From the NCBI GenBank assembly GCA_018818925.1, contig JAHJQZ010000041.1, positions 1-64,000 of the forward strand: a DNA stretch of 64,000 bases, given 5' to 3'. Every line of letters begins with the position of its first letter. Positions within the stretch are counted from its first letter, which is position 1. The translations under genes and the position numbers were made by a program. A model generated the notes under the pieces. It was given only the letters and a program-made list of their open reading frames with translations, did not search any database and was not told the DNA's origin. The stretch comes from Alphaproteobacteria bacterium (GTDB lineage Bacteria > Pseudomonadota > Alphaproteobacteria > Rhizobiales > Devosiaceae). Below are positions 1,385-45,723 of the stretch, one piece after another.

Positions 1385-2340
1385 CACAAGCTCCTCGAAA
1401 CGAATAGCAGCAGCGTGCCCAAAAGGCCGAGCATCAGCGCCGCGCCGAGGAAATCGGGTACGCGGAACACCCGCATCTTGGCGACCATCGTCTCGAACAG
1501 ACCGAGCAGGAAGGCGCCGATCATGAACTTGCCGAAATAGGCGACGGCGCCGACGGCGTAAAGCAAAGGCCCGGCGCCAGGCGCGCCAATGCCCCAGGGC
1601 ACGAAGATGCACGCGATCAGCGAAACGTAGAGGATGAGTTTCAACGAGGCGGCCAGCTCGATCAGGGCCAGGTGCCGCCCGGAATATTCGAGCACCATGG
1701 CCTCGTGCACCATGGTCAGCTCGAGATGGGTTGCCGGATTGTCGACCGGAATGCGGGCATTCTCGGCGATCGCGACCATGATGAGGGCGACGAGCGCCAT
1801 TCCGAGCGAAACGCGCAAGCCCATTTCGGTCGAACTCATCATCGCGGCCACCGTCGACAATTGTGTCGAACCGGCAATGAGCGCCAGTGAGAAGACGGTC
1901 AGCATCATCGCCGGCTCCGCCAGCGAAGCGATCATCATTTCGCGGCTCGACCCGATGCCGCCGAAGCTGGTGCCGATATCCATGCCGGCCAAGGCGAGAA
2001 AGAATCGTCCGAAACCCAGAAGTGAAATGATGGCGATGAGGTCGGCGGTCCAGCTGAAAACGAGCCCGCCGGCGAAGGTCGGCACCAGAGCCGCCGCTAC
2101 CCAGGTCGAGGCGAAGATGAGATAGGGAGCGGCACGAAACAGCCATGAGGCGTTTTCCGCAAGCACCACCTCCTTGCGCATGAGGCGGAGGAGGTCGCGA
2201 TAGGGCTGGAACACCGAGGCGCCCCGCCTGAGGGTCAATCGCGCCTTCACCTTGCGCACGACGCCGGTCAACAGCGGCGCCAGCAACAGCACCAGCAGCA
2301 TCTGCGCGCCCTGAACGGCGAAATCGACGATCACTGCCAT
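1384..2340 (-). CDS. hyfC: Hydrogenase-4 component C-like (NuoH family) membrane anchor
   Basis: A 318-residue NuoH/HyfC-family protein that anchors the hydrogenase or quinone-module subunits to the membrane. Visible family signatures are the AENARIPVDNPATHLELTMV region, the VHEAMVLEYSGRHLA stretch rich in acidic residues, and about eight hydrophobic segments. Its start lies 10 bases inside the 3' end of hyfB and its stop overlaps the hyfE start, so it is the second gene of a coupled operon. In this family the polar loop residues form the link between the FeS module and the proton channels. The length is normal and no lesion is seen. Confidence 0.9.
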   Translation of the reverse strand: MAVIVDFAVQGAQMLLVLLLAPLLTGVVRKVKARLTLRRGASVFQPYRDLLRLMRKEVVLAENASWLFRAAPYLIFASTWVAAALVPTFAGGLVFSWTADLIAIISLLGFGRFFLALAGMDIGTSFGGIGSSREMMIASLAEPAMMLTVFSLALIAGSTQLSTVAAMMSSTEMGLRVSLGMALVALIMVAIAENARIPVDNPATHLELTMVHEAMVLEYSGRHLALIELAASLKLILYVSLIACIFVPWGIGAPGAGPLLYAVGAVAYFGKFMIGAFLLGLFETMVAKMRVFRVPDFLGAALMLGLLGTLLLFVSRSL

Positions 2341-4349
2341 ATCGCGAGCACCAGCAGCAAAAGCACGAGAGTCGAGAACACCAGCATCAGGAATTGGCGG
2401 ATGGTGAGGAACTGCAGCCGATTGAGCCTGTCGGCAAGGCCTAGTATGCCGGCGGAAACGGGCTTGTAGATTCCGTCCCAGACCGGATCGATGAGCGCGA
2501 CGTCAAGACGCGCCGGTCCGAGATCGCCTGGCGGCGGCATGACGACGTTTTCGCGCGCCCTGAAAACCAGCGAGCCGAACACCCGGCGGATCGGTTGGGC
2601 GAAGCTTGATGCGGAATATTGCGTGATCGGGCGCGGGTCGGGGGCGCCGCAATCCCAGGCCGGGCCCCGACGTGTCGCTCTTGAGGCGAAGCGATGAATG
2701 GCCAGGGCCGCGAGCCAGGCCGAAACCGCGATGAACAGGAAGACCAGCAGACCGTTATACGAGCTTCGGCTTTCGGCGATCGGCACGATCGACATCCAGG
2801 CGACGCCGGATTGGTGTGGCATCGACTGGCCCAGCATCAGCGATTTCACGACAGGGGCCAGCAGGTCGATGAACGGACCGGGAAGTATGCCGATGATGAG
2901 GCAGAAGGCGACCAGAGCATACATGGCGGCAAGCGAGAAACGATCGACTTCGCGCGCCTTGGTGGCGGCGTCGCTGCGCGGCCGACCGAGAAAGATGATG
3001 CCGAACGCCTTGACGAAGCAGGCCGCCGCAAGTGCCGCCGAAAGCGCCAGGAGCGCGCCGGTTGCCGGCACGAGGAATTTGAGGCCCCAGCTCGGCAATT
3101 GCGGGCTTAAAAGGATCGCCTGAAAGGTCAGCCATTCGGAAACGAAGCCGTTGAGCGGCGGCAGCGCCGAAATGGCCGCGCTGCCGACAAGGAATGCAAA
3201 GGCCGTGTGCGGCATGCGGTGGATCAGCCCGCCCATCTGCTCCATGTCGCGCTCGCCCGTCGCTGTCAGTATTGCGCCGGAACCGAAGAACAAAAGGCTC
3301 TTGAACACCGAGTGATTGACGGCGTGCAGCAATCCGGCGGTCAGGGCCAGTGCTCCGGCGCCCACCATGCCATAGGCCCTGAAGGCAAGCGCCAGGCCGA
3401 GGCCGATGAAGATGATCCCGACATTTTCGACCGTGTGATAGGCGAGCAGCCGCTTGATGTCGTGCTGCATCAGCGCGTAGAGCACGCCCATCACCGAGGT
3501 GATCCCGGCCAGGGCCAGGACGACGAGGCTCCACCACCAGGCCGGCGGGCCGAGCAGGTCGAAGACGATGCGGATGAAACCGTAGATCGCCACCTTGGTC
3601 ATCACCCCGCTCATCAGCGCCGAAACATGGCTTGGGGCGGCGGGATGGGCGAGCGGCAACCAGACATGCAAGGGCACCAGACCTGCCTTCGACCCGGCAC
3701 CGACAAGCGCCAGGATCAGCACGAGGCCGGCGATCCCCGGGCCCGGTGGCAGCGCGCGGATCGCATCGAACCCGTAGGCGCCGGCAGAACCGGCCAGAAG
3801 CCCGAATGCCAGCAACAGGCAGAAGGTCCCGAAACTCGCCATGACCAGATAGATCACGCCTGCCTTCCGGTTGGCTTCGGAGCGGTGATGCGCGACGACC
3901 AGCGCCCAGGAGGTCAGCGACATGAGTTCCCAGGACAAAAGGAAGGTGAAGGCGTCGTCGGCCAGCACGACGAGGTTCATGCCGGCGAGAAAGGCGGCAT
4001 AGAAGGGCAGGACCCGATGCGGCGCATCCTCGTGTCGGCCATAGCCGAGCGCGTAGAGACTGGCGATCGCGCCGCCGAAATCGACAATGAGCAGAAAAAG
4101 GCTCGATAGCGCGTCGAGCCGAAAATTGGCGCCGATCCAGGGAAGTCCGAGCGGCAGACTGGTCCGGGAGACTTCTCCCAGCGCCAGAAGATGAAACAGC
4201 AGCAGTACCACGGCCAGCGACGAGATGAAAAAACTCAGGCCGTAAACGAGCCGACCGACACTGGCGGAACGCGAAAAGACCACCGCGATCACCGCCGTGG
4301 CGAGCTGGGCCGCAACCAGCAAAAGCAAGACGGAGACGCTATTGGTCAC
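2331..4349 (-). CDS. hyfB: Hydrogenase-4 subunit B-like proton-pumping protein
   Basis: A 672-residue NuoL/HyfB-type antiporter subunit with roughly 14–16 hydrophobic segments. Conserved features include the membrane Glu in LLSWELMSLTSW, the Lys/His-containing GSKAGLVPLHVWLPLAHPA, and a second Lys in NHSVFKSLLFF. The C-terminal third (PAWDCGAP onward) is the typical HyfB extension. The start is GTG at 4347–4349, which overlaps the end of the upstream XRE gene by 11 bases. It opens the membrane module hyfB-C-E-F and should drive ion translocation coupled to a low-potential redox reaction. No formate dehydrogenase or large/small hydrogenase subunit is in view, so the electron donor is unknown. 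Confidence 0.9.
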   Translation of the reverse strand: MTNSVSVLLLLVAAQLATAVIAVVFSRSASVGRLVYGLSFFISSLAVVLLLFHLLALGEVSRTSLPLGLPWIGANFRLDALSSLFLLIVDFGGAIASLYALGYGRHEDAPHRVLPFYAAFLAGMNLVVLADDAFTFLLSWELMSLTSWALVVAHHRSEANRKAGVIYLVMASFGTFCLLLAFGLLAGSAGAYGFDAIRALPPGPGIAGLVLILALVGAGSKAGLVPLHVWLPLAHPAAPSHVSALMSGVMTKVAIYGFIRIVFDLLGPPAWWWSLVVLALAGITSVMGVLYALMQHDIKRLLAYHTVENVGIIFIGLGLALAFRAYGMVGAGALALTAGLLHAVNHSVFKSLLFFGSGAILTATGERDMEQMGGLIHRMPHTAFAFLVGSAAISALPPLNGFVSEWLTFQAILLSPQLPSWGLKFLVPATGALLALSAALAAACFVKAFGIIFLGRPRSDAATKAREVDRFSLAAMYALVAFCLIIGILPGPFIDLLAPVVKSLMLGQSMPHQSGVAWMSIVPIAESRSSYNGLLVFLFIAVSAWLAALAIHRFASRATRRGPAWDCGAPDPRPITQYSASSFAQPIRRVFGSLVFRARENVVMPPPGDLGPARLDVALIDPVWDGIYKPVSAGILGLADRLNRLQFLTIRQFLMLVFSTLVLLLLVLAIWQ

Positions 4350-28980: not shown

Positions 28981-29719
28981 TGGCCTTCTCCTCGATTTCG
29001 TGGCCGATCAGGCCCTTGTCGAATTCACGCTCGCCGATCGGGATCCTGAAGCCCTCGCGCTTGCGAATGATGCAGCCGACCGGGCAGACCTCGGCCGAAA
29101 TGGCGTGATCGGTGACCGCCGCGTCGGTATGGGCGAGGTCCATGCCGTTGACCGCGACGCGCCGCTTGATGCCGCGGCCGACATAGCCGAACAGGCCCTT
29201 GCCGTCGACATCCATCGAGGCGCGGATGCAGCGCCCGCAGGAAATGCAGCGATTGGTATCGAGGGCGATGTCGGGATGGGAGGCGTCGAGATCGCGGTTC
29301 GGTTCCAGATAGGGGAACTTGGTCGGGTTCGTCATGTCGAGCCGGTAGGCCATGGCCTGCAGCTCGCAATTGCCGGACGCCTCGCACATCGGGCAGAGGT
29401 GATTGCCTTCGTGGAACAGCATCTCGACCAGATCGCGCCGGAGCTTGGTCAGGTACGGCGTTTCCGATTCGACATTGGTGCCGGGGTTGGCCGGCTGGGT
29501 GCAGGCCGAGACGGAACGTCCGCCCACCTTGACGGTGCAGACCCGGCACGAACCCTGATGCCTGAGGCCTTCGTGGTCGCAAAGGCGCGGGATGTAGATG
29601 CCGGCGTCGTCCGCCGCTTCCATGATGGTCTGGCCGGGCTGTGCCCTGATCTCGACACCGTCGATGGTGAAGGTGAAGGTCGTGTCGCGCCGTGTGCCGG
29701 TGTCGCTGATCGCACTCAT
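28973..29719 (-). CDS. hoxU: NAD-reducing hydrogenase diaphorase subunit HoxU
   Basis: A 248-residue NuoG-N-terminal-like FeS protein. Plant-type [2Fe-2S] ligands are in RLCDHEGLRHQGSCRVC plus a later Cys (SACTQP). The His-ligated cluster is in HEGNHLCPMCEASGNCELQ, followed by Cys groups NRCISCGRCIRA and EVCPVGC. It wires HoxF to HoxY. The start ATG overlaps the hoxF stop by four bases. This is the usual HoxU length, and all expected cysteines are visible. Confidence 0.94.
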   Translation of the reverse strand: MSAISDTGTRRDTTFTFTIDGVEIRAQPGQTIMEAADDAGIYIPRLCDHEGLRHQGSCRVCTVKVGGRSVSACTQPANPGTNVESETPYLTKLRRDLVEMLFHEGNHLCPMCEASGNCELQAMAYRLDMTNPTKFPYLEPNRDLDASHPDIALDTNRCISCGRCIRASMDVDGKGLFGYVGRGIKRRVAVNGMDLAHTDAAVTDHAISAEVCPVGCIIRKREGFRIPIGEREFDKGLIGHEIEEKANA

Positions 29720-31584
29720 TGGCTGAAGTCCTTGTCAAAGATGTAGGAGCGGCGCTTGGCGATCTTGCGCGCTCCATCGATCGCCGCCTGGATGTCGAAC
29801 GTGTCCCTGATGCCGTCCTTGGTCGGCTTGGTCATGGTCGAATAGATCAGCGGGAAGCTCTTGAGGGTGGTCAGCACCGGGTTCGGCGAGGTGATGCCGA
29901 GACCGCAGCGGCTCGTTTCGATGATGGTCGAGCTGAGGTCCCTCAGGTATTCGATGTCTTCCGGGTTGGCCAGGCCCTTGCGGAACTTGGCGATGGCCTT
30001 CTGCAAGAAGACGTTGCCGACCCGGCACGGCGTGCAGTAGCCGCAGCTCTCGTGCACGAAGAACGACATGTAGTATTCGACGATCTCGAGAATGTTGCGC
30101 GAGCCGTTGAAGATGATGATGGCGCCGCCCGTGGCGAGGTCGTCGAAGGTCAGCTTCCGGCTGAAGCTGTCGCGGCCGATCATGGTGCCGGACGGGCCGC
30201 CGACCTGTACCGCCGCCGCGTCTTCGCCGCCAACGATGCTCAGCAGTTCCCAGATCGAATGGCCGTAGGGCAATTCGTAGATGCCGGGGTTGAGGCAGTC
30301 GCCCGAAACCGAGAACAGCTTGGTGCCGTGGCTGCCTTCCTTGCCCATGTCGAAGAACCACTTGGCGCCTTTGTCGAGAATGCGGGCGGCGTGGCAGAAG
30401 GTCTCGACATTGTTGACCACGGTCGGATAGCCGAGATAGCCGCGCTGCACCGGGAAAGGCGGACGGGTCTTGGGTTCGCCTGGCAGGCCCTCGCAGGACG
30501 AAATCAGCGCGCCTTCCTCGCCGCAGACATAGGCGCCAGCGCCAAGCTGGATGCGGATGTCGAAATGGAAGTTCCTGACGCCCATGATCTCGGTGCCGAG
30601 CAGTCCGGCGGCGCGGCGCTCGTCGAGCACTTCCTCGAGAAGGGGCCTCAGATATTCGTATTCGCCACGAAGGTAGATGATGCCTTCCCTGGCGCCGACG
30701 GCGCGGGCGGCAACGGTCATGCCCTCGATGAGAAGGTGGGGACGTTCGGTCAGAAGCACGCGGTCCTTGAACGTGCCCGGCTCGCCTTCGTCGGCATTGC
30801 AGATCACGAAACGGCGTTCCGCCTCGCCGCCGGCGGCGAAGCGCCACTTGCGGCCGGTGACGAAACCGGCACCGCCGCAACCCCTGAGGCCGCTTTCCTC
30901 CATGGTGGTGATGATCTGCGTCGGAGTGATCGACACGGCCTTGGTCAGGCCGGCATTCTGCGGCACCGGCCCGAGCAGGACCTCGCCGGCATGGCGGATA
31001 TTGGAGTTGACCATGCGGTTCGCCCGCTCATGCGCCGAGGACGGCGAAAAGCCCGGCACGGCGATCTTTTCCGGCGTCTCGCCGGCCCTCAGGGCATTGG
31101 CGACGTCGCGCGCCTTCTCGCGGGTGAGCTTGGTGATGACCACGTCGTTGATCATCGCCGCCGGCGCCTGGTCGCTCATGCCGATGCATGGCGTGAATTC
31201 CAGCGAGAACGCGCCATCCCGGGAGGTCTGGCCCATCTTGATCCCGAGCGCCCGCTCGAACTCCGCGACCACCGCATCGAGACCGTGGAACCGGTCGATG
31301 ATGTCGTCGCACAGCCGGATGGTGACCCGGCCCTTCGGCTTGAGCGAAAAGAACGAATAGAAACTGGCGACGCCCTCGACCTGGATGCGCGATAGATCGG
31401 TCGCCTCGGCGATGGCTTCCATCGTCTCGGGCGCGATCCAGCGATAGCGATTCTGGACGGTGTGCAGGATGTCCATCATCCTGTGGCGGTCATTGCCGTA
31501 TTCGGCGCAGATTTCAAGAATTTCCGCTTTGGGAGGCGGGGCGGCTTCTACGGTTTCAGGGGCTTGTGAGGTTTGGACATCCAT
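29716..31584 (-). CDS. hoxF: NAD-reducing hydrogenase diaphorase HoxF with fused HoxE-like domain
   Basis: A 622-residue NADH-handling flavoprotein. Residues about 25–170 are a NuoE/HoxE-like domain. The rest is NuoF-like, with the NADH/FMN region (GLRGCGGAGFVTGRKW, CNADEGEPGTFKDR, GAGAYVCGEEGALI) and the [4Fe-4S] ligands ESCGYCTPCRVG plus SRCGLG. The NuoE part keeps only two of the four usual [2Fe-2S] cysteines (RLCDDIID and FTPCIGMSDQ), so that cluster is probably absent, as also reported for Ralstonia HoxF. The ATG at 31582–31584 follows GAGAGAAG. It is the first gene of the hox–hyp run. Confidence 0.93.
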   Translation of the reverse strand: MDVQTSQAPETVEAAPPPKAEILEICAEYGNDRHRMMDILHTVQNRYRWIAPETMEAIAEATDLSRIQVEGVASFYSFFSLKPKGRVTIRLCDDIIDRFHGLDAVVAEFERALGIKMGQTSRDGAFSLEFTPCIGMSDQAPAAMINDVVITKLTREKARDVANALRAGETPEKIAVPGFSPSSAHERANRMVNSNIRHAGEVLLGPVPQNAGLTKAVSITPTQIITTMEESGLRGCGGAGFVTGRKWRFAAGGEAERRFVICNADEGEPGTFKDRVLLTERPHLLIEGMTVAARAVGAREGIIYLRGEYEYLRPLLEEVLDERRAAGLLGTEIMGVRNFHFDIRIQLGAGAYVCGEEGALISSCEGLPGEPKTRPPFPVQRGYLGYPTVVNNVETFCHAARILDKGAKWFFDMGKEGSHGTKLFSVSGDCLNPGIYELPYGHSIWELLSIVGGEDAAAVQVGGPSGTMIGRDSFSRKLTFDDLATGGAIIIFNGSRNILEIVEYYMSFFVHESCGYCTPCRVGNVFLQKAIAKFRKGLANPEDIEYLRDLSSTIIETSRCGLGITSPNPVLTTLKSFPLIYSTMTKPTKDGIRDTFDIQAAIDGARKIAKRRSYIFDKDFSQ

Positions 31585-32189
31585 ATCTTCTCTCCAACTC
31601 CGCCAGTCTAAAGCGGATGGGCCGGCTCCGGATTTATAGCCCCAGTGTGTGGGGTCATGGGCGCGGTTTGCAACCGCAAACTGATGGTCGGATTCTGGCA
31701 TGCGGGGCATGCGGGGCGGGCGAAAGGGAACAGGCCATTCGCGATCGGCGCCATTGCCCTTGTAGCTGTTGTTTTTATTGGCAAAATCCTCGATTCTGGC
31801 GGTGCCGACCTTGCAGCGGCGAACCTAACGGGCAAGCGTGGCGTCGACAATAGGCCAAGAGCGCGCAGCACATGCTTAACGCACTGAAAAAGATATGAAA
31901 ATTCGAATGTACTTATGCATTCGACTAGGCCCGTGCCGCCCGCCAATGCCGTGCCGGACAAGGCGTTTTCGCGGCCGGCGCAACCTGCCGGCGCCGCCGC
32001 GCCGGCCTTTTGCCGACCGGGATGCGGGCATGGCGCGCGACGCCGTGTCACGCACCTTGCCGGCACGGCCCGAATGCCTTGCGCAAACGCGCCGTCCCGC
32101 CCGCGGCACAACACCCAAGCGGCGCCGCCGAAGGACGTCGCCGCAATGGCTCTTGGTGTCGCTCGGATGGTCCTAATCGCGCTCGGTTC
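31585..32189. other. 605-base gap: hox promoter region and hydA 3' side
   Basis: No gene is supported here; open frames lack any family signature or good start. The stretch around 31740–31925 is lower in GC than its surroundings and is the likely hox promoter region. It holds an inverted repeat GTTTGC-AACC-GCAAAC (31666–31681) and TCGAATG…CATTCGA (31903–31924). I found no clear FNR, sigma-54 or riboswitch pattern. Confidence 0.5.
31903..31924. promoter_or_regulatory. Inverted repeat TCGAATG-N8-CATTCGA upstream of hox
   Basis: A perfect seven-base inverted repeat separated by eight bases, about 320 bases upstream of hoxF. The 10-mer ATTCGAATGT at its left edge recurs at 36249–36258 in the [FeFe] hydrogenase promoter region, which makes it a candidate shared operator. 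Confidence 0.35.
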
Positions 32190-34046
32190 CTAGTAGATCA
32201 TCGTGCTCATCTTGACGTCGTCCCACACTTCCTTGACCGAGCGCTGCATGGCGCGCCGGCGGTCGGTGTAGTGGGTATGCAGCAGCTTATGGGCCTTTTC
32301 CGAGTTCGGGGCTTCGAGAAAGTCCCGGTAAAGCGTCTTGACCTGCTCGTTTTCGTGCGAGCGTCGAACCGTTTTCTGGCGGTCGACATTGTAGATGGTC
32401 TCGCGCCGCGCCATGGCGTGCGGCAGATAGGCCTTCTTGGACCTGAGCGAACCGCCGCCATCGACGCAGCCGCCGGGACAGGCCATGACCTCTATGAAAT
32501 CGTAATCGGCCTCGCCGGCCAGGACCGCTTCCACGAGCTTGCGCGTGTCGCCGAGCCCGTGGACCATCGCCACCTTGACCTCGCCGAACGGTCCGCCGAG
32601 ATCGACCCGGGCTTCGCGAATGCCCTCGAAGCCGCGCAGCTGGGTCAGCTCGATCTCATCCAGTTCCTTGCCGTTGACCACCGAATAGATAGTCCTGACC
32701 GCCGCTTCCATGACGCCGCCGGTCGTGCCGAAAATGGCGCCGGCACCGGAGAACTCGCTCATGTACGGGTTGTCGAAGTCGGACGGCTCGAGATCGGGCA
32801 GGTGGATGCCCTCGCGCCTCAGAAGCCGGGCGAACTCGCGCGTCGTCAGCACCACGTCCGTCTCCGGCATGCCATCGATCTGCAATTGCGGGCGCACCGC
32901 TTCGTCCTTCTTGGCCGTGCATGGCATGATCGAGATGACGCGGATCTTGTCCGCCGGCACGCCGATCTTTTCGGGCAGGTAGGTCTTGGCGAGGGTCGAC
33001 AGCACCTGCTGCGGCGACTTGGTCGAACTCAGCATCGGCAGGATGTCGGGGTAGTGGATTTCGGCGAAATTGATCCAGCCCGGGCAGCAGGACGTGAAAG
33101 TCGGCTTTTTTCCGCCCTTCAAGCGTTCCAGAAGCTCGATGCCTTCCTCCATGATGACGACATCGGCGGCGAAATTGGTATCGAGCACGATGTCGACGCC
33201 GATCTTGCGGCAGGCCGCGACGACCAGACCCTGGACGTTGGTGCCCGGCGCCATGCCGAATTCCTCGCCGAAGGCGACGCGCACCGCCGGGGCGAACTGC
33301 ACCACGGTGGTGATTTCGGGATCGTAGATGAAGTCGAGCGCCTTGTCGGTCTCGTCGCGCTCGCCGAGCGCCCCGGTCGGACAGACGAGCACGCACTGTC
33401 CGCAGCTGACGCACAGCGAATTGGCCTGGACGCCGCCGCCGCGCAATTCGACCAGCCGGTCGACGCCGGTTTCGGACATCATCAGTGCATCGACGCCCTG
33501 GAAATAGCGGCACACCGCGACGCAGCGCTGGCACCGGACGCAACGGGTCATGTCGCGGATGATGGCGGGGGAGGAATCGTCGATCGGGCGCGCCTCGGTG
33601 CGGGCGCGGTCGAAGAAACGGTTCTCCCTCAAGCCGACGAACTGGGCGAGGTCCTGCAATTCGCAATCGCCGTGGCGGATGCAGGTGGCGCAGTCCTGCA
33701 GATGGTCGGCCATCAACAGCTCGACCTGGAGCTTTTGCATCTCGCGCACCTGGCGGGTGCGGGTGTCGACCGCCATGCCTTGGCGCACCGGCGTGTTGCA
33801 GGAGGTGACGACCTGGTGCGACTTGCCCGGCTCGGCGATGTCGACGACGCAGACCCGGCAGGTGCCCGGCGTGTGGTCGATGTCGTCGAGTTCGCAAAGG
33901 GTCGGGATGTAGAGGTCGTGCCGGCGGGCGCAGCTCAGGATGGTTTCATTGTGGAAGCCCTTGCAGGCCTTGCCGTTGATCGAAAGCGAAATCGTCGCTT
34001 CGGCCGGATTGCGCGCGTAGAAATCGGCTGTCTCGGTGCTGCACAT
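32190..34046 (-). CDS. hydA: [FeFe] hydrogenase catalytic subunit
   Basis: A 618-residue, CpI-like [FeFe] hydrogenase. N-terminal: [2Fe-2S] cysteines (LCELDD, GTCRVC, TSCNTP), a His-ligated cluster (DHLQDCATCIRHGDCELQ) and two [4Fe-4S] sites (CVRCQRCVAVC, CVSCGQCVLVCP). The H-cluster motifs are all intact: TSCCP with Cys320 (proton relay) and Cys321, MPCTAKKDE with Cys376, and EVMACPGGC with Cys523 and Cys527. It should reversibly reduce protons to H2. The start is three bases after the NuoF–GltD fusion gene, its likely electron partner. No hydE, hydF or hydG maturase gene is in the window, so they must lie elsewhere if the enzyme is active. Confidence 0.94.
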   Translation of the reverse strand: MCSTETADFYARNPAEATISLSINGKACKGFHNETILSCARRHDLYIPTLCELDDIDHTPGTCRVCVVDIAEPGKSHQVVTSCNTPVRQGMAVDTRTRQVREMQKLQVELLMADHLQDCATCIRHGDCELQDLAQFVGLRENRFFDRARTEARPIDDSSPAIIRDMTRCVRCQRCVAVCRYFQGVDALMMSETGVDRLVELRGGGVQANSLCVSCGQCVLVCPTGALGERDETDKALDFIYDPEITTVVQFAPAVRVAFGEEFGMAPGTNVQGLVVAACRKIGVDIVLDTNFAADVVIMEEGIELLERLKGGKKPTFTSCCPGWINFAEIHYPDILPMLSSTKSPQQVLSTLAKTYLPEKIGVPADKIRVISIMPCTAKKDEAVRPQLQIDGMPETDVVLTTREFARLLRREGIHLPDLEPSDFDNPYMSEFSGAGAIFGTTGGVMEAAVRTIYSVVNGKELDEIELTQLRGFEGIREARVDLGGPFGEVKVAMVHGLGDTRKLVEAVLAGEADYDFIEVMACPGGCVDGGGSLRSKKAYLPHAMARRETIYNVDRQKTVRRSHENEQVKTLYRDFLEAPNSEKAHKLLHTHYTDRRRAMQRSVKEVWDDVKMSTMIY

Positions 34047-34049
34047 GGC

Positions 34050-36047
34050 TCAGGCCGCTCCTTCGGGAATGGAATGCTCGGTCACGACGGAGTAGATGCG
34101 GTAGCAGCGCATGCAGCGCTGGGCCTCGGCATAGGCCTGGCGGTCGGAAATGGTCTGCTCCACCTCCTCGAACATGTGTTTTCTCAACTCGGGATCGAGT
34201 TCCGGGTTGTGCACGCGGTACATGTTCCTGACCGGCGTCTCGACCACGTCGTCGGCAACGAAACCATTGTCCTTGATAAGCTGGCGCATGCGCGAGCGCT
34301 TGAAGAAGCGCGACGAGCCGAGCTGGATCCAGTCGTTGATGTTGCGCGCCGCCTTGAGGCCGGCGGCCATGGCATAGATCAGCGTCGACGGGCCGGTGAC
34401 GCAGTCGCCGCCGGCTAAGACGCCGGGCCGCGAGGTCGCCAGCGCCCAGTCGGTCTGAACCGTGCGCCAGCGGTTGAGCTCGACGCCGTCCTTGCTGATC
34501 AGTTCGGCATTCTCGACCTGCTGGCCGATGGCGGCGATGATCGTGTCGCACGCCATGGTGAATTCGGAGCCGGGAACGGGCCTGACCTTGCGGCGGCCGG
34601 TTTCGTCCGGTTCGGTCTGTTCCATTCTCACCATCTCGACGCCGAGCACCTTGCCGTTCTCGACGATGATGCGGGTCGGATTGGTGAGGGTATGAAAATG
34701 GATGCCTTCGTGATCGGCCGCGACCAGCTCCTCGTGGTCGGCCGGCATGTCGTCGCGGGTGCGCCGGTAGACGACATGGACGTTGTCGGCCCCGAGGCGA
34801 ATAGCGGAGCGCACGCAGTCCATCGCCACGTTGCCGCCGCCGACGACCACGACCTCGCCCTTCATTTCGAGCGGCTTGATGCCGTCGACATGATCGTGGA
34901 CTTTCAGAAGAAAATCGATGCCGGAGTAGTAGCCCTGGCGCGCCTTGTCCTCGTTCTCGACGCCCATCTGGGTGCCCTGCTGGCAACCAAGGGCGAGGTA
35001 GACCGCCTTGTAGCCCTGGGCGAACAGATCATCCACGGAAAAGTCGCGCCCGAGCGCCTGCCCGAACAGGAACTTGCCGCCCAGCTCGACGATGATGTCG
35101 GTCTCGAGCGCCAGCGTGTCCTTGGGCAGGCGGTAGCTCGGAATGCCGATCTGGGCCATGCCACCGGCCTGGTCGGTCTTTTCGAAGACATCGACGTGAT
35201 AGCCGTGCAGCAAGAGGTGATAGGCGGCGGACAGGCCGGCCGGGCCGGCACCGACCACCGCGACCTTCATGCCGTCCGCAAGGGGTCGCGTGATCATGTC
35301 GCGGGTGAACTTGAGGGCGTTGGGCCCCTTCTGCTGGTCGGCGACGTAGCGCTTCAAGATCTTGATGCCCACGGCCTCGTCGACGAACTTGCGCCGACAG
35401 GCCAGTTCGCAATAGCGCACGCAGACGCGTCCGCACGTCGCCGCCATCGGGTATTTCTGCAAGAGCACGCCGAGCGAGTTCTCCGGCTTGCCGTCGCGGA
35501 TATAGTCGATATAGCGCGGCACGTTGACCTTGGACGGACAGGCCTCGATGCATGGCGCCGTCATGTAGGCCATGCCGTGCTGGGCCTTGATCGGCCGGTG
35601 GCCGGCGATCTCGGTCTCGATGCGGTCGCGGAAATTATGGATGACGTCCAAAAGAGCGACCGAGCAGGTCTGTCCGAGGCCGCAGAGCGAAGTTGTCTTC
35701 ATCTGCTGGCCGAGCAGTTCGATGTCGTCGAAATCGAGCGGCGAATCGAGGCCGCGCCGCATCTTGTCGAGCGCGTCGCGCACCAGAACCGTGCCCATGC
35801 GGCACGGGGTGCAGGCGCCGCAGGACTGTTCGGCCGCCTTGTCCATGTAGTGGAAGAGCGCGTCGATCAGGCTGATCTTGTCGTCGAAGACGAAGAATCC
35901 GCGGTCGCCGAAAAAGGCGCGAATGGGATTGCCGTCGTCGAACTCGTCGAATTTCTTGAGGCCGGTGAGCGGCGAAGTGGCGGGGACAACGCCTTTTTGC
36001 GTGTCGTGAACCACGCCGTCCCAAACGCCGAAAGCGACCTGTGCCAT
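34050..36047 (-). CDS. NuoF C-terminal segment fused to GltD-type NAD(P)-linked flavoprotein
   Basis: A 665-residue fusion. Residues 40–140 match the FeS end of NuoF (SCGACTPCR with Cys76, Cys79, Cys82, plus Cys122 in SLCGLG), but the NADH/FMN part of NuoF is absent. Residues about 160–665 are a GltD/NfnB-like oxidoreductase: N-terminal FeS cysteines (PCIEACPSK, CGRVCVRYCELAC), FAD site VVGAGPAGLSAA and NAD(P) site VVGGGNVAMD. It precedes hydA by three bases and probably carries electrons between NAD(P)H and the hydrogenase. This matches the glutamate-synthase-linked (A2-like) [FeFe] type. The ATG at 36045–36047 follows GAGG. The direction and any electron bifurcation are unknown. Confidence 0.9.
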   Translation of the reverse strand: MAQVAFGVWDGVVHDTQKGVVPATSPLTGLKKFDEFDDGNPIRAFFGDRGFFVFDDKISLIDALFHYMDKAAEQSCGACTPCRMGTVLVRDALDKMRRGLDSPLDFDDIELLGQQMKTTSLCGLGQTCSVALLDVIHNFRDRIETEIAGHRPIKAQHGMAYMTAPCIEACPSKVNVPRYIDYIRDGKPENSLGVLLQKYPMAATCGRVCVRYCELACRRKFVDEAVGIKILKRYVADQQKGPNALKFTRDMITRPLADGMKVAVVGAGPAGLSAAYHLLLHGYHVDVFEKTDQAGGMAQIGIPSYRLPKDTLALETDIIVELGGKFLFGQALGRDFSVDDLFAQGYKAVYLALGCQQGTQMGVENEDKARQGYYSGIDFLLKVHDHVDGIKPLEMKGEVVVVGGGNVAMDCVRSAIRLGADNVHVVYRRTRDDMPADHEELVAADHEGIHFHTLTNPTRIIVENGKVLGVEMVRMEQTEPDETGRRKVRPVPGSEFTMACDTIIAAIGQQVENAELISKDGVELNRWRTVQTDWALATSRPGVLAGGDCVTGPSTLIYAMAAGLKAARNINDWIQLGSSRFFKRSRMRQLIKDNGFVADDVVETPVRNMYRVHNPELDPELRKHMFEEVEQTISDRQAYAEAQRCMRCYRIYSVVTEHSIPEGAA

Positions 36048-36198: not shown

Positions 36199-36212
36199 TT
36201 GCGCTGGATCAA
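36199..36212. promoter_or_regulatory. FixK/FNR-type box, hydA side
   Basis: TTGCGCTGGATCAA fits TTG(A/C)-N6-(T/G)CAA exactly. Its complement, TTGATCCAGCGCAA, is a form I recall for rhizobial FixK2 boxes. It lies about 150 bases upstream of the NuoF–GltD gene and would suit low-oxygen activation of the [FeFe] hydrogenase operon. Confidence 0.68.
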
Positions 36213-36443: not shown

Positions 36444-37454
36444 ATGAGTTCCTCTTCAAGTCTTGTGATCAGCCGGCGTGAGGTTCTTGCCGGTTTCGGC
36501 GCCGTTTGTGCCGCCGGTTTCCTGCCGTCATTGGGCGCAAAGGCCGCGCCGCTTGCCGAGCCGCTGACCATCTGGGGCATTCCGGCCTCGCCCTCGGCAG
36601 TCTTTTCCCGCGCCGTCGCCTCGGGCGCTCTCGACACGGTGGCGCCGGGCGCCAGTTTCGACATCTGGAAATCGACCGACCAGATGCGCGCCGGCGTCGC
36701 CACCGGCGATTTCCAGCTTTTCGCCAGTTCGACCTATGCCGCCGCCAATTTCTACAATCGCGGCGCCGGCACCCGCATGGTCAATGTCGTGACCTGGGGC
36801 GTGCTCTACATCATGGCGCGCGACGAAAGCATCACCTCGATCGCCGACCTTGCCGGCAAGCGCATCCTCAATTCCAACAAGAACGAGGCGCCCGACCTGA
36901 TCTTCAGGCTGGTCCTCAAATGGGCCGGCCTCGACCCGGACAAGGACGTGTCGATCGACTATGTCGGCTCGCCCAATGAGGCAGTGCCGCTGTTCCTTTC
37001 CGGTCGCGGCGATGTCGCCGTCATGCACGAGCCGGCGGCGACGGCGGCGCTGATCGCGGCGAAACAGCAGGGCCTGTCGCTGTTCCGCGTTCTCGACGTG
37101 ACCGAGCTTTATGGCCAATATACCGGCCGCGGCCCGAAAATCCCGCAGGTCGGGCTGGCGGTCAGCGAGGACTTTCTTGATGCGCATGACGACGTCGTCC
37201 GTGCCGTTCACGAAGCCTGCGTCGAGGCCGGACAATGGGTTCTGGCCAATGCCGAAGCGGCGGGGGCCCTCGCCGCCAAGACCCTGCCATTGCCGGCGCC
37301 GGTCATTGCCCAGTCGCTGCCCTTTGTTCATCTCGATGTCCGGACCGCGAAGGACTCGCGGGCCGACATCGAAGCCTATTTCGATCACCTGATCGGTCTC
37401 GATCCGGGTATTGTCGGCGGCAAGCTGCCGGATTCGGGCTTCTACTGGGGCTAG
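36444..37454 (+). CDS. ABC importer substrate-binding protein, NitT/TauT type
   Basis: A 336-residue exported binding protein with a twin-arginine-type leader (ISRREVLAGFGAVCAAGFLP) and a cut site near SLGAKAAPLA. The body follows the NitT/TauT fold: WGIPASPSAVF at the start of the mature chain, GDFQLFASSTYAAANFY, and LFLSGRGDVAVMHEP. The family binds small organic or sulfonated compounds, nitrate or vitamin precursors; the ligand cannot be read from sequence. An AGGAG lies eight bases before the ATG. It is followed by permease and ATPase genes and shares a promoter gap with the hydrogenase operon. A thiamine-precursor role would suit the nearby thiamine-dependent PFOR but is a guess. Confidence 0.85.
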   Translation: MSSSSSLVISRREVLAGFGAVCAAGFLPSLGAKAAPLAEPLTIWGIPASPSAVFSRAVASGALDTVAPGASFDIWKSTDQMRAGVATGDFQLFASSTYAAANFYNRGAGTRMVNVVTWGVLYIMARDESITSIADLAGKRILNSNKNEAPDLIFRLVLKWAGLDPDKDVSIDYVGSPNEAVPLFLSGRGDVAVMHEPAATAALIAAKQQGLSLFRVLDVTELYGQYTGRGPKIPQVGLAVSEDFLDAHDDVVRAVHEACVEAGQWVLANAEAAGALAAKTLPLPAPVIAQSLPFVHLDVRTAKDSRADIEAYFDHLIGLDPGIVGGKLPDSGFYWG

Positions 37455-37487
37455 AGGCAGCCGATTACAGCCGGTTTACACGGCAAC

Positions 37488-37591
37488 CGTCATTGCGAGC
37501 GCCGTCAGGCGCGCGGCAATCCAGAGGGCAATCGACGCCAACGCATGCAGCCTTCTGGATTGCCGCGCCGCTTCGCGCCTCGCAATGACGG
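37488..37591. repeat. Intergenic palindromic repeat, family C
   Basis: Ends are CCGTCATTGCGAG and its exact complement CTCGCAATGACGG, with an inner pair GCGCGGCAATCCAGA / TCTGGATTGCCGCGC. The whole unit can fold into one long hairpin. It is a type well known in rhizobial genomes. It sits between the binding-protein and permease genes of the ABC importer and might trim downstream expression. Confidence 0.85.
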
Positions 37592-37609
37592 GGAACGAAT
37601 GGCGATGAA

Positions 37610-38404
37610 ATGAGCAAAGACAAGCGCTGGCAGGCAGAAGGCAAAACGGCGAGCTGGCTTTATGGCCTTGCTGGCCTCGCTTTCTTGCTTATCGGCTGGG
37701 AATGGGGGCACCGCGCCTATGGAGCGCTGGTGCTTCCCGGCCTTGCCGAAACCCTGGCGACCTTGTGGGCCATGTTGGTTGGCGGCCGGATCGTGCCGGC
37801 GCTGATCGAGACCGCCGGCAACGCCGCCATGGGCTGGTGCGTGGGCATTCTCGCCGGCACCGTTCTCGGGACTTTGGCGGGCCTTCGCACTGAAATCCGC
37901 CTGACCCTGCAGCCGGTCTCGATGATCCTGCTCGGCATTCCGGCCATCGCCTGGATCGTTTTGGCGCTGTTGTGGTTCGGCGGCCGCTGGGCTGTCGTCT
38001 TCACCGTGGCCGTCGCCACCGCGCCGATCGTCTTTGCCGCCGCCACCGAGGGCGCCCGCAGCCTCGACGGCGATCTCGCCCGCATGGCCCGCGCCTTCCG
38101 TGCTCCCTTTGGCGCCATGGCGCGCGATGTCTACGGTCCGCACATGTTCTCCCATCTGTTTCCGGCCGTGGCGACGACTCTCGCCATGTCGTGGAAGGTC
38201 TCCGTCATGGCCGAGCTATTGAGCGGCGCCGGCGGCATCGGCGACGGAATCGCCACGGCCAGGGCCCAGGTCGACACTGCCGCGACCATGGCCTGGGTGC
38301 TGGTCGTGGTCGTCATGCTCGTGGTTTTCGATCATCTGCTGCTAAGACCGTTGCAGCGGAGCATGCAGCTCTGGCGCGGCGCAGACGGGGAGGAGCGGCC
38401 ATGA
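37610..38404 (+). CDS. ABC importer permease, NitT/TauT type
   Basis: A 264-residue inner-membrane permease with about six hydrophobic segments and the cytoplasmic loop that docks the ATPase (AATEGARSLDGDLARMARAF, the EAA-type motif). It is one of three genes of an importer, with the ATPase start overlapping its stop by four bases. The Shine–Dalgarno before the ATG is weak, and a long repeat hairpin separates it from the binding-protein gene, so expression may be lower than that of the first gene. Substrate unknown. Confidence 0.87.
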   Translation: MSKDKRWQAEGKTASWLYGLAGLAFLLIGWEWGHRAYGALVLPGLAETLATLWAMLVGGRIVPALIETAGNAAMGWCVGILAGTVLGTLAGLRTEIRLTLQPVSMILLGIPAIAWIVLALLWFGGRWAVVFTVAVATAPIVFAAATEGARSLDGDLARMARAFRAPFGAMARDVYGPHMFSHLFPAVATTLAMSWKVSVMAELLSGAGGIGDGIATARAQVDTAATMAWVLVVVVMLVVFDHLLLRPLQRSMQLWRGADGEERP

Positions 38405-39117
38405 CATTGCCCGCGCTCGCCTTCGAGGGCGTCGGCTTCGCCTATAACGGCAAATTCGTGCTCGATGGCGTCGACTTCGCCGTGCCGGCCGGCGAGGTCA
38501 CGGCGCTGATGGGTCCGTCCGGCTGCGGCAAGTCGACCCTGGTGGCGCTCGCCGCCGGCCTGTTGCAGCCCCGTTCGGGACAGGTGCGTCGCTCCCACCG
38601 CCGCGCCGCCGTGATGTTCCAGGACCCGCTGCTGCTGCCTTGGCGGACGGCGCGCGACAATGTCGGCTTCGCCCTCAAGGCCGAAAGGCTCGACCGCGCC
38701 GAACGCCTCGGCCGCGCCGGCAGCATGCTGACCCAGGTCGGTCTTGGTGCCGAAGATGCCGGCAAATATCCGCGCCAGTTGTCCGGCGGCATGCGCCAGC
38801 GCGTCGCGCTGGCCCGCGCCCTCGTGGTCGATCCGGACCTCCTGTTGCTCGACGAGCCGTTCAACGGCCTCGACACCGCGCTTGCCGACCGCATGCTGGC
38901 GCTGGTGCGCGATCTGGTCGAGCGGCGGGGCGTCACGGCGCTGGTCATCACCCACGATCCGCGCCAGGCGGCGCGTTTTGCCGAGACGGTCCATATCCTG
39001 TCGCCGGCTCCGGCGCAGGTTGTGGCATCCAGGCCGCTGGCCGCCGGTGGCGATGTGGTGCGCGACGCCGAGGCGATTCTCGCCGATCTCGCGAGACTGG
39101 ACGCGGCGAGGGAGTAG
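38401..39117 (+). CDS. ABC importer ATP-binding protein
   Basis: A 238-residue ATPase with Walker A (GPSGCGKST), Q-loop (AVMFQDPLLLPWRT), ABC signature (LSGGMRQRVALARAL), Walker B (LLLLDEPFNGLD) and His-switch (VITHDP). The LLPW after the Q-loop is typical of NitT/TauT-type importers. It energises the importer encoded by the two preceding genes. The start overlaps the permease stop. There is no regulatory C-terminal domain. Confidence 0.9.
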   Translation: MTLPALAFEGVGFAYNGKFVLDGVDFAVPAGEVTALMGPSGCGKSTLVALAAGLLQPRSGQVRRSHRRAAVMFQDPLLLPWRTARDNVGFALKAERLDRAERLGRAGSMLTQVGLGAEDAGKYPRQLSGGMRQRVALARALVVDPDLLLLDEPFNGLDTALADRMLALVRDLVERRGVTALVITHDPRQAARFAETVHILSPAPAQVVASRPLAAGGDVVRDAEAILADLARLDAARE

Positions 39118-39326: not shown

Positions 39327-40319
39327 TCAGGCGCCGAAGCCCTGCAACACCTTGATGTAGTTGGCGCGCTCATAGGCTTCCGGGTTCTCGACCTTGGCAT
39401 GGCTCAGTTTGCCGCGGATGTCGTCCGGCGATTTGAGATTGCGGGCGGAAATCCACTCGCTGAGCCCGTCGTGCAGTACGCGCATGTGCTGCGGACCGTG
39501 GCGCAAGAGAGCCGAGGCCGTCATGACCACGTCGGCGCCGGCGAGCAGGTATTTCACCACGTCGTCGGGCGTCTCGACGCCGGTCGTGGCGGCGAGCGAA
39601 GCAGCAATGCGTCCGTACAAAACGCCGATCCACAGAAGCGGCAGGCGCATTTCGGACGATCGCGACAGATCGAGGCTGGTTTCGACCGAAAGGTTCACCG
39701 GGTCGATGTCCGGTTCGTAGAAGCGGTTGAACAGAACCAGACCCTTGGCCCCGGCTTCGACCAGCTGACCGGCCATGTGTCCGGTCGAGGAGAAATAGGG
39801 GCCGATCTTGACCGAGACCGGGATTTTCACCGCCGAGGACACGGCGGCAACCACATCGGTATAGCGCTTTTCGACCTCGCGTCCGTCGAGCGCAATGTCG
39901 GAGGGCACGAAGAAGATGTTGAGCTCGATCGCCTGGGCACCGGCCGACTCGGTGTCGCGGGCATATTCGATCCAGCCGCTGGTGCTGACGCCGTTGAGGC
40001 TGGCGATGATCGGCACGTCCACGGCCTTGGCCGCGTTTTCGATCAGCCGCTTGTAGTCGGAGCTGTCGAAGGCATATTCGGCCTCGGACGGGAAATAGCT
40101 CAGCGCCTCCCCGAAGCTTTCCGCACCGGATCCGATCAGCGCGTCGATCATTTCCTGTTCGCGCGTGATCTGTTCCTCAAAGATCGAGGGGAGAACCACG
40201 GCGGCGGCGCCGTGGTCCCTCAATTGCTTGATGCTGTCGAGCTTGCGGCCCAGCGGAGAGGGGCTGGCGACCAGCGGGCTTTCGAGCGTGAGGCCGAGAT
40301 ATTTGGTTTTGAGATCCAT
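39327..40319 (-). CDS. Dihydroorotate-dehydrogenase-like protein
   Basis: A 330-residue FMN-barrel protein of the DHOD-like group often encoded next to pyruvate:ferredoxin oxidoreductase. Visible blocks are LGLTLESPLVASPSPLG, ASLNGVSTSGWIEYAR, IELNIFFVP, PVSVKIGPYFS, and the phosphate-binding C-terminal LLAGADVVMTASALLRHGP. The usual catalytic Ser/Cys loop of pyrimidine-pathway DHODs is not obvious, so de novo pyrimidine synthesis is not the safe assumption. It is the last gene of the gltD-like/nifJ operon and may be a ferredoxin-linked flavoprotein. The true reaction is unknown. Confidence 0.86.
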   Translation of the reverse strand: MDLKTKYLGLTLESPLVASPSPLGRKLDSIKQLRDHGAAAVVLPSIFEEQITREQEMIDALIGSGAESFGEALSYFPSEAEYAFDSSDYKRLIENAAKAVDVPIIASLNGVSTSGWIEYARDTESAGAQAIELNIFFVPSDIALDGREVEKRYTDVVAAVSSAVKIPVSVKIGPYFSSTGHMAGQLVEAGAKGLVLFNRFYEPDIDPVNLSVETSLDLSRSSEMRLPLLWIGVLYGRIAASLAATTGVETPDDVVKYLLAGADVVMTASALLRHGPQHMRVLHDGLSEWISARNLKSPDDIRGKLSHAKVENPEAYERANYIKVLQGFGA

Positions 40320-40331
40320 TTTGGCCTCCCT

Positions 40332-43934
<3,603 letters not shown>

Positions 43935-43935
43935 T

Positions 43936-45567
43936 TCAAACGGTCTCCGGGATCATGTCTATGGCGTGGCAGGGGCACTGCTCGTAGCAGGTCTGGCAGC
44001 CGGTGCATTTTGCGTAGTCGATGGCGTATTTGCGGCCGGGGCCGAGCTTGGTGATGGCTTCTTCCGGGCAGGCGGCATAGCAGTTGTCGCACTCGTAGCA
44101 GTCGCCGCACGAATAGCAGCGCTGCGCCTCGTACTGCGCTTCGAGCTCGGAAAGGCCGGCGATGATCTCGGTGAAGCCGGCGACGCGCTTGGCCAGTTCG
44201 AGTTCGCCCTGGTGGCGCGGGTCGGCGTCCGAATAGACCGGCAGATGCAGCATGTCGAAGCTGACGATCTCGGCCTTGTCCGGCGCCGTATAGGTCGTGC
44301 CGTTGAGCCAGGCGTCGATGGCGCGGGCGGCCTTCTTGCCGTGTCCGGTGGCGATGGTCACCGACTGGTCGCCGGGGGTCATGTCGCCGCCGGCGAACAC
44401 GCCTTGGGCGCCGGTCATCATGTTCTTGTCGACCTCGACCGTGCCGTTCCACGAGAAGTTGAGGCCGGCAATGCCCTTCAAGAAGCCGCTATCGGTTTCC
44501 TGGCCGAGGGCAAGGACGACGGAATCGGCCGAGAGCGTGTCGAACTCGCCCGTCGGCTGCGGCTTGCCGTGCGCGTCGATGACCATGCGTTCGACGGTCA
44601 GCTCGGTGCCCTGGATTTCCTTGATCGTGGTCAGCCACTTGATCTTGATGCCTTCCTCGATGGCCTCGTCGGCCTCGAAGGAATGCGCCGGCATGTGCTC
44701 GCGGTCGCGACGGTAAACGATCACCGTCTCGGTGGCGCCGAGGCGCTTGGCGGTGCGGGCTGCGTCCATGGCGGTATTGCCACCGCCATAAACGATAACC
44801 CGCCGTCCAAGGAGCGGCGGGTTTCCGGAACTGGTGTCGTGAAGCACGCTGACGGCGTCGAGTACTTTCGCCGCGTCGCGTGCCGGAATGTCGACATGTT
44901 TGCCGACGCCGGCGCCGATGGCGACGAAGACGGCGTCGAACTTGCCGGCCGCCTTTTCGGCGTTGAGATCGGTCACCTTGTGATTGAGCACGATCTTGAC
45001 GCCCATGTCCTCGATGCGCTTGACCTCACGAGCCAGCTCCTCGCGCGGCATGCGATAGGCCGGGATGCCGAAATGGATCATGCCGCCGGCGACCGGGCCG
45101 GCCTCGTGGATCTCGACCTGATGGCCGAGCCGCGCCAGATGGTAGGCGGCGGACAGGCCGGACGGGCCGGCACCGACGATGAGCACCTTCTTGCCGCTCG
45201 GCTGCTTGATCGGCTTGAACTGCCAGCCGCTGGCCAGCGCCATGTCGCCGAGAAAGCGTTCAACGGCGTGGATGGTGACCGCGGTATCGACGTCCTTGCG
45301 GTTGCAGTTCGATTCGCAGGGGTGGTAGCAGACGCGCCCATGCACGGCCGGCATGGGGTTCTCAGCCGTGAGCGTTTCCCAGGCTTCGCGGAATCGACCC
45401 GCCTGCGCGTAGGACAACCATCCTCGAATGTTCTCGCCGGCCGGACAGGCATTGCTGCAGGGGGGCGTGAGTTCGACATAGATCGGCCGCTGGTGTCTGA
45501 CCGGCCCGGTTCCGTGGGTCACGGTGAGATCGACGGCCGGGGTGAAATCCCGAAGTCTCGTGCTCAT
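43936..45567 (-). CDS. GltD-type NAD(P)H:ferredoxin oxidoreductase with C-terminal ferredoxin domain
   Basis: A 543-residue flavoprotein. N-terminal FeS cysteines (PPCSNACPAGENI, GRVCYHPCESNCNR), FAD site IVGAGPSGLSAAYH, NAD(P) site VYGGGNTAMDAA, then a C-terminal ferredoxin-like segment (CYSCGDCYECDNCYAACP, CTGCQTCYEQCPCHA). It lies directly before nifJ, so it probably passes electrons between NAD(P)H and the PFOR ferredoxin pool. It differs from the hydA partner, which has a NuoF-type FeS N-terminus instead of this C-terminal ferredoxin. I take the ATG at 45565–45567, where homology starts; its ribosome site is only moderate. Confidence 0.87.
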   Translation of the reverse strand: MSTRLRDFTPAVDLTVTHGTGPVRHQRPIYVELTPPCSNACPAGENIRGWLSYAQAGRFREAWETLTAENPMPAVHGRVCYHPCESNCNRKDVDTAVTIHAVERFLGDMALASGWQFKPIKQPSGKKVLIVGAGPSGLSAAYHLARLGHQVEIHEAGPVAGGMIHFGIPAYRMPREELAREVKRIEDMGVKIVLNHKVTDLNAEKAAGKFDAVFVAIGAGVGKHVDIPARDAAKVLDAVSVLHDTSSGNPPLLGRRVIVYGGGNTAMDAARTAKRLGATETVIVYRRDREHMPAHSFEADEAIEEGIKIKWLTTIKEIQGTELTVERMVIDAHGKPQPTGEFDTLSADSVVLALGQETDSGFLKGIAGLNFSWNGTVEVDKNMMTGAQGVFAGGDMTPGDQSVTIATGHGKKAARAIDAWLNGTTYTAPDKAEIVSFDMLHLPVYSDADPRHQGELELAKRVAGFTEIIAGLSELEAQYEAQRCYSCGDCYECDNCYAACPEEAITKLGPGRKYAIDYAKCTGCQTCYEQCPCHAIDMIPETV

Positions 45568-45631
45568 TGGCTTTTTGGCCTTCTCTTCCCAAGTTTGCCG
45601 GGTTTGTCTCCAAACCGGCGGGTTGCCGCCA

Positions 45632-45647
45632 TGATCTGAGTCATGAC
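45632..45647. promoter_or_regulatory. CRP/FNR-superfamily-like palindrome upstream of the PFOR operon
   Basis: CATGA-N6-TCATG is a perfect 5-6-5 palindrome, centred about 73 bases before the gltD-like start. The spacing is that of CRP/FNR-family sites, although the outer bases differ from the TTGAT consensus. Confidence 0.42.
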
Positions 45648-45723
45648 TTGCGCGCAAAGCGCATATCCTGTGCAGTCTTCTCCACTTTTTGTCTGTTCGC
45701 CACGATAAGTTGAAAGGCAACCG

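Follow-up and report, generated by a model that had tools for sequence, protein, structure and literature searches.

Gene content and domain architecture of the locus

We analyzed a 64,000-nucleotide stretch of an alphaproteobacterial genome (assembly GCA_018818925.1, contig JAHJQZ010000041.1, positions 1 to 64,000; hereafter the window), which encodes an [FeFe] hydrogenase, HydA, beside a flavoprotein partner in which the C-terminal part of NuoF is fused to a GltD-type protein. The pair is linked to a three-gene ATP-binding cassette (ABC) importer, a feature that was missed in an earlier, sequence-only reading of this DNA, and it resides in a genome in which we found none of the maturases HydE, HydF and HydG (HydEFG) that are regarded as essential for an active [FeFe] hydrogenase. 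The features of the locus are collected in Table 1.

Table 1. Features of the hydA module and their positions in the window
Feature	Position	Strand	Basis
HydA, group A [FeFe] hydrogenase, M3-type, 618 aa	32190-34046	-	Pfam/NCBIfam; H-cluster residues aligned to CpI
HydA SSU (small-subunit) domain	32259-32414	-	Pfam/NCBIfam
HydA H-domain	32454-33308	-	Pfam/NCBIfam
HydA [2Fe-2S] domain	33756-33998	-	Pfam/NCBIfam
NuoF-C-terminal/GltD fusion flavoprotein, 665 aa	34050-36047	-	Pfam/NCBIfam; nearest solved chains NfnA 9n5u, 9bov, 8oh5
FAD/NAD(P) domain PF07992 of fusion, GGGNVAMD and YRR motifs	34359-35270	-	Pfam; NADP(H)-like by inference
GltD/DPD-type two-[4Fe-4S] domain PF14691 of fusion	35328-35567	-	Pfam; residue alignment
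NuoF-type (N3) [4Fe-4S] domain PF10589 of fusion	35613-35858	-	Pfam; residue alignment
FNR/FixK-type box TTGATCCAGCGCAA, divergent promoter region	36199-36212	-	Motif search
Second, identical FNR/FixK-type box TTGATCCAGCGCAA	36300-36313	-	Motif search
SsuA/NMT1-like substrate-binding protein, 336 aa, twin-arginine-like leader	36444-37454	+	Pfam; neighbour of HydA in 17 loci; fold model
ABC importer permease	37610-38404	+	PF00528; best NCBIfam match SaoP, 64.5 bits vs cut-off 295
ABC importer ATPase	38401-39117	+	PF00005

The hydA and fusion open reading frames were confirmed at the coordinates of Table 1, both on the minus strand and with 3 bases between them. HydA has the M3 layout, consisting of a [2Fe-2S] domain, a NuoG-type His-Cys [4Fe-4S] site, a 2x[4Fe-4S] region, the H-domain and the SSU domain, and it matched PF02906, PF02256, PF13510 and PF10588 as well as ferredoxin domains in Pfam. 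Its TIGR02512 score (510 bits) exceeds the cut-off of 406, its score against the NCBIfam A6 profile NF040763 (724 bits) falls under the cut-off of 765, and the nearest solved chain is HydA1 of 8a6t. As the sequence-only reading had claimed, HydA retains every H-cluster motif, including the proton-relay Cys320, which aligns with Cys299 of CpI. The link drawn there to the glutamate-synthase-linked [FeFe] class was also right. A GltA/GltD-domain gene adjoins hydA (PRK12771 at 422 bits, gltA matches, PF14691 and PF07992), and an A2-like assignment (putative HydDB group A2) appears reasonable. A HydB with the NuoF flavin mononucleotide (FMN)/NADH domain and a NuoE-like HydC were not found beside hydA among the conserved neighbours at 17 loci.

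The fusion protein begins with about 60 residues, which are followed by the NuoF C-terminal [4Fe-4S] domain, a GltD/DPD-type two-cluster domain and a flavin adenine dinucleotide (FAD)/NAD(P) domain. Pfam detected no PF01512 (NADH/FMN) domain in the fusion, and the NuoF match spans only profile positions 307-410 of 410, indicating that the FMN/NADH part is missing; the partner had been described as a NuoF [4Fe-4S] site without the NADH/FMN part joined to a GltD-type FAD/NAD(P) protein, and Pfam and NCBIfam agree. The [4Fe-4S] ligands C76, C79, C82 and C122 are invariant in 18 homologues. Among solved chains, NfnA and Stn/FDH-linked chains are nearest to the GltD half, and NfnB and HydB are nearest to the N-terminal part. 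AlphaFold modelling of the fusion gave a poor result (mean predicted local distance difference test score, pLDDT, of 51), which was set aside. The YRR and GGGNVAMD motifs suggest, by analogy, that the fusion prefers NADP(H), and the domains are most naturally read as passing electrons from NAD(P)H to HydA. On ferredoxin bifurcation the evidence points neither way, as the module has no NuoF FMN domain, NuoE or NfnS, yet a GltD/NfnL-type FAD is present; no NfnS-type second flavin subunit was found among the conserved neighbours of the module.

Distribution of the gene pair and absence of the maturases

Another 17 sequenced genomes carry the fusion-HydA pair in the same order, with 68-83% identity, indicating that the pairing is not due to chance. 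The carriers are found in Tropicimonas, Rhodobium, Aliiruegeria, Rhodovulum, Cohaesibacter, Rhodobacter sp. Har01 and Oryzibacter.

The genome to which the window belongs is a 3.18 Mb bin of 177 contigs that is 96% complete with 4.6% contamination. In this genome the HydE and HydG profiles had no match, and the HydF profile matched generic GTPase domains only, with no true HydF. HydA activity via the known maturation route is thus contradicted by the genome. The sequence-only reading had held that a lack of hydEFG would refute a working complex; the genes are indeed absent, but a dead enzyme is still not the conclusion that we draw. Across the carriers, the maturase search covered 16 genomes, and hydE, hydF and hydG were all absent from 14 of these, which bear HydA (pair identity 75-83%) and are mostly isolate assemblies. 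Because hydEFG are likewise missing from these 14 further carriers and yet the H-cluster pocket is invariant, we read the absence as unexplained maturation or function. One more bin, L046, in which the fusion is broken, has neither HydA nor maturases, and Oryzibacter is the sole searched carrier with maturases (HydE 304, HydF 538 and HydG 521 bits, above the cut-offs).

A bin of this quality may lack genes, and contig C24 may even be misbinned, so that one could suppose an ordinary group A2 hydrogenase whose HydEFG were missed through assembly gaps or divergence. However, the same absence recurs in 14 independent carriers, mostly isolate assemblies, and the same search detects the divergent Oryzibacter HydEFG at 304-538 bits; we consider this explanation very unlikely.

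Three Cohaesibacter genomes gave weak HydE/HydG-like matches. The one pair examined (G068, L105) lies beside a CofD-like F420 biosynthesis gene and was read as FO-synthase genes and not as maturases; in the other two genomes the matches are paired in the same way. HydF matches in other genomes were to the generic GTPase domain only and hence were not taken as HydF. The Oryzibacter maturase cluster includes an aspartase/fumarase-family lyase between hydF and hydG (L098:8147-9568), which agrees with a published report that ammonia-lyases help to make the dithiomethylamine ligand (PMC11736057).

Conservation of the active site

All 18 HydAs of the clade keep the [4Fe-4S]H ligands C300, C355, C499 and C503 (CpI numbers throughout), the [2Fe]-pocket residues A230, P231, S323, P324, Q325, M353, K358, F417, G418 and M497, and the proton path formed by C299, E279, S319, E282 and R286. 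In the family alignment 307 of the 620 columns are invariant and about half vary, and dN/dS (the ratio of nonsynonymous to synonymous substitution rates) is ~0.2 for both HydA and the fusion. Some HydAs of HydG-less alphaproteobacteria from the gut carry other residues at Q325, M353 or G418. A sensor-like Oryzibacter HydA has lost many pocket and proton-path residues. Since Q325H alone is also present in a genome with HydG fragments, this replacement by itself is no marker of maturase loss. The intact pocket argues, short of proof, for an H-cluster in this clade.

These residues also bear on the idea that HydA is a relic or a structural apo-protein without catalysis. Only the absence of HydEFG points that way, and purifying selection, the invariant pocket and the apparent repeated horizontal transfer of an intact module all speak against it, making such a role highly improbable.

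Linkage to an ABC importer

The importer is encoded on the plus strand (36444-39117), opposite to the fusion gene, and its genes begin at a distance of 397 bases from that gene. Linkage was counted over the 17 loci of the maturase-less clade, namely 16 fetched loci and the window. The importer adjoins the pair in 17/17 of these loci, with the binding protein and permease in all and a clear ATPase in all but L044, and it is arranged in tandem downstream, in tandem upstream (L036) or divergently (the window, L031, L037, L038 and L042). Besides the importer, no further conserved neighbour genes were found near the pair. Oryzibacter has no importer at its locus, and a genome-wide search at E 1e-10 found none either.

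Within the divergent promoter region of 396 bases, TTGATCCAGCGCAA occurs twice without mismatch, at a spacing of 101 bases, where 0.04 would be expected in the window; these are the only matches in the 64 kb at up to one mismatch. Such boxes are recognised by FNR/FixK-type regulators, and low-oxygen expression is therefore likely. In Rhodovulum adriaticum and R. strictum (L035 and L039) the same box lies on the other strand upstream of the fusion, and across the loci we counted 9 dyads of FNR/FixK type upstream of the fusion, compared to ~1 expected. No NifA or sigma-54 sites were found upstream.

Sequence families did not yield a ligand for the importer, giving only sub-threshold SsuA, SaoP and TAXI matches. 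The binding protein scored 50.7 bits with TIGR01728 (SsuA), not reaching the cut-off of 163.5, and the profiles of the Sao organometal importer were far under their cut-offs (SaoP 64.5 vs 295; SaoA 132 vs 360). An AlphaFold model of the binding protein (mean pLDDT 85) was closest to 3hn0, PqqT and SsuA, with PqqT as the best Foldseek match. PqqT binds pyrroloquinoline quinone (PQQ), a redox cofactor that many bacteria obtain from their surroundings (PMC12124388). PQQ uptake may serve as a precedent for the idea of cofactor supply, and is not evidence on the ligand of this importer.

The nearest importer relatives (L108, L109, L113, L115 and L121) share operons with genes for NnrS and TonB-dependent receptors, and next to these lie nos genes or genes for haem uptake (HutW/HutX). 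At the likely cleft positions, the HydA-linked proteins have SNKNEAPD where these relatives have PFKNDMPD, and HEP for SEP, which suggests that the ligand of the HydA-linked importer may differ from that of its relatives. We found no description of a link between a hydrogenase and an importer in the literature searched, which had few subscription journals.

The strong linkage to an uptake system, together with the lack of HydEFG in the carriers, would fit the main rival explanation, according to which HydA has been repurposed. It would then hold Fe-S clusters only, or another cofactor, and with its NAD(P)H-dependent partner would reduce an imported substrate, no longer being a hydrogenase. However, without an H-cluster the [2Fe]-specific and proton-transfer residues should drift, and all of them are invariant in the clade; no change at a substrate site is apparent either. 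Repurposing is thus a serious alternative, but in our view an unlikely one.

HydA without HydG elsewhere in Alphaproteobacteria

Of 385 evenly sampled alphaproteobacterial genomes, 24 had HydA, and HydG was found above the cut-off in 11 of the 23 besides the present genome; HydA without HydG is therefore recurrent in Alphaproteobacteria. Genomes with HydA and no HydG match include G114, G166, G277, G447, G248, G165 and G259, which have an estimated completeness of 96-100% and are mostly 1.1-1.6 Mb in size; G248 lacks HydG, though its congener G344 has it. A second HydA of ~700 residues, found in a Tropicimonas genome and in G259 (L095:1499-3604 and L094:9382-11454), forms a pair of its own with 100% support. 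These second HydAs have an intact pocket except for F493 to A and no partner gene, and there is no HydG in either genome. The importer is absent from the HydG-less gut alphaproteobacteria.

This recurrence in genomes without the importer would fit a HydA that is active and matures by some unknown pathway other than HydEFG, whose genes lie elsewhere in these genomes; the importer would then meet a different demand, for example the uptake of sulfur or iron complexes at low oxygen. The intact pocket would fit as well, and the window encodes Hyp machinery (HypA, B, D, E and F), which makes Fe(CN)2CO for [NiFe] hydrogenases. On the other hand, the module appears to move between genomes, so that all recipients would need that pathway, and the strict co-inheritance of the importer would be left unexplained. 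We regard such a pathway as fairly improbable.

History of the module

In the HydA tree Oryzibacter branches first, as sister to the other 17 sequences (Shimodaira-Hasegawa-like approximate likelihood ratio test, SH-aLRT, 96), and genera are mixed, with Cohaesibacter and Tropicimonas each in separate places, some branches being weakly supported. No full-length fusion was found in any of 60 relatives of this genome, and this, together with the mixing of genera, suggests that the module probably moved between hydEFG-less genomes. HydA, the fusion and the three importer genes appear to move as a unit. The strongest hint that these genes suffice for some benefit is the ability of the module to spread where hydEFG are missing.

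Plasmid 6 of Collinsella aerofaciens (NZ_OY725717.1) carries, in the same order, genes for a NuoF-C/GltD fusion, HydA, a binding protein and a permease and ATPase fused in one protein. In contrast to the module in the window, this one is from another phylum (Actinomycetota) and its binding protein falls in a different lineage of the importer family, so the link between the importer and an A2-type hydrogenase either had two or more origins or is very old. A general tie of the importer to maturase loss does not follow. In Vescimonas a related importer follows the gene for a TM1266-type [FeFe]-hydrogenase regulator, whereas no hydrogenase gene lies near the importer of Subdoligranulum or Acetoanaerobium.

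Proposed function of the module

The explanation that we tentatively prefer, though we give it somewhat less than an even chance, is that HydA is an active, NAD(P)H-linked hydrogenase that obtains its [2Fe] unit from a HydEFG-independent source, with the importer taking part. The five genes would constitute one low-oxygen module, in which HydA and the fusion form an NAD(P)H-linked [FeFe] hydrogenase complex. NAD(P)H would reduce the FAD in the GltD-type half, from which electrons would pass through the two [4Fe-4S] clusters of that half to the NuoF-type [4Fe-4S] cluster, then to the NuoG-like clusters of HydA and finally to the H-cluster. Because the clade is without HydEFG, the [2Fe] unit would not be built by these enzymes. 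The importer is the leading candidate supplier of a precursor or ligand for it, or of the whole unit, although what it carries is speculative. A bolder version, in which the active site is scavenged and the importer takes up a [2Fe] unit or an iron-carbonyl/cyanide precursor shed by other microbes, so that HydA could mature in the absence of HydEFG just as PQQ is imported by many bacteria unable to make it, seems to us distinctly unlikely.

Several points weigh against this proposal. The H2 activity and the HydA-fusion complex are predictions from sequence, the importer ligand is conjectural, and we know of no natural uptake of a [2Fe] unit. Importer gain and maturase loss are essentially one transition, so their correlation rests on n = 1, and a role for the importer as a universal replacement for the maturases is ruled out by the HydG-less gut alphaproteobacteria that do not have it. 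Moreover, the PqqT match of the binding protein is one of fold only, at ~20% identity, and importer relatives at ~40% identity are tied to NnrS and denitrification, not to hydrogenases.

Either a second route to the H-cluster exists, or the hydrogenase fold has gained new chemistry on an imported substrate. A second route, if true, would matter for the use of hydrogenases in hosts without maturases, and the carriers include cultivable Rhodovulum, Rhodobium, Tropicimonas and Cohaesibacter.

Other genes in the window

Two further hydrogenase systems are encoded in the window: one is represented by HyfB (2331-4349), a membrane subunit of group 4 (Hyf/hydrogenase-4-like) type, and the other is a Hox-type bidirectional [NiFe] enzyme with fused HoxE-HoxF (29716-31710), HoxU, HoxY, HoxH and HypABDEF; the HoxEF protein belongs to this [NiFe] cluster and not to the HydA module. 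Within a group of genes at 39327-45720, a pyruvate:ferredoxin oxidoreductase (40332-43934) has on one side a dihydroorotate-dehydrogenase-like protein (39327-40319, PRK07565). On its other side is a second GltD-type protein (43936-45720, PRK12771), which binds NAD(P) and has a 4Fe-4S tail. This group is possibly a pyruvate-to-NAD(P) electron route.

Comparison with known systems

As far as the literature searched shows, a mobile, importer-linked HydA clade with an unaltered pocket has not been described. The closest class is HydDB group A2, 'glutamate synthase-linked (putative)', defined by a GltA/GltD gene downstream of hydA and no NuoF domain; its role is given as undetermined, with the remark 'May couple H2 oxidation to NAD reduction' (PMC5037454), and as late as 2025 a gut study named the group among those in need of characterisation (PMC12578642). 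The present system resembles group A2 in having HydA beside a GltD-type flavoprotein, but here the partner lies upstream of hydA and contains a C-terminal NuoF 4Fe-4S domain, HydEFG are absent and an importer is part of the module. With the HydABC-type NADH-dependent or bifurcating enzymes (A3 / NCBIfam A6) it shares a HydA of the same sequence type, whereas the FMN-bearing HydB and the HydC/NuoE subunit are missing and a GltD-type FAD protein stands in their place. The Nfn and Sporomusa-type Nfn (Stn) transhydrogenases likewise have a GltD/NfnL-type FAD module with two 4Fe-4S clusters; in the present system, however, a NuoF-type 4Fe-4S domain is joined to this module, the partner is a hydrogenase, and there is no NfnS or full NuoF subunit. 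The HydA-linked binding protein has the same fold as PqqT and SsuA, at ~20% identity. Finally, HydA without maturases has been noted in Rhodospirillum rubrum, where it was concluded to be inactive or to have another function, and in Entamoeba (PMC4967309). Neither of these is described with a linked importer or a NuoF/GltD partner, whereas here a whole clade carries HydA with an intact pocket.

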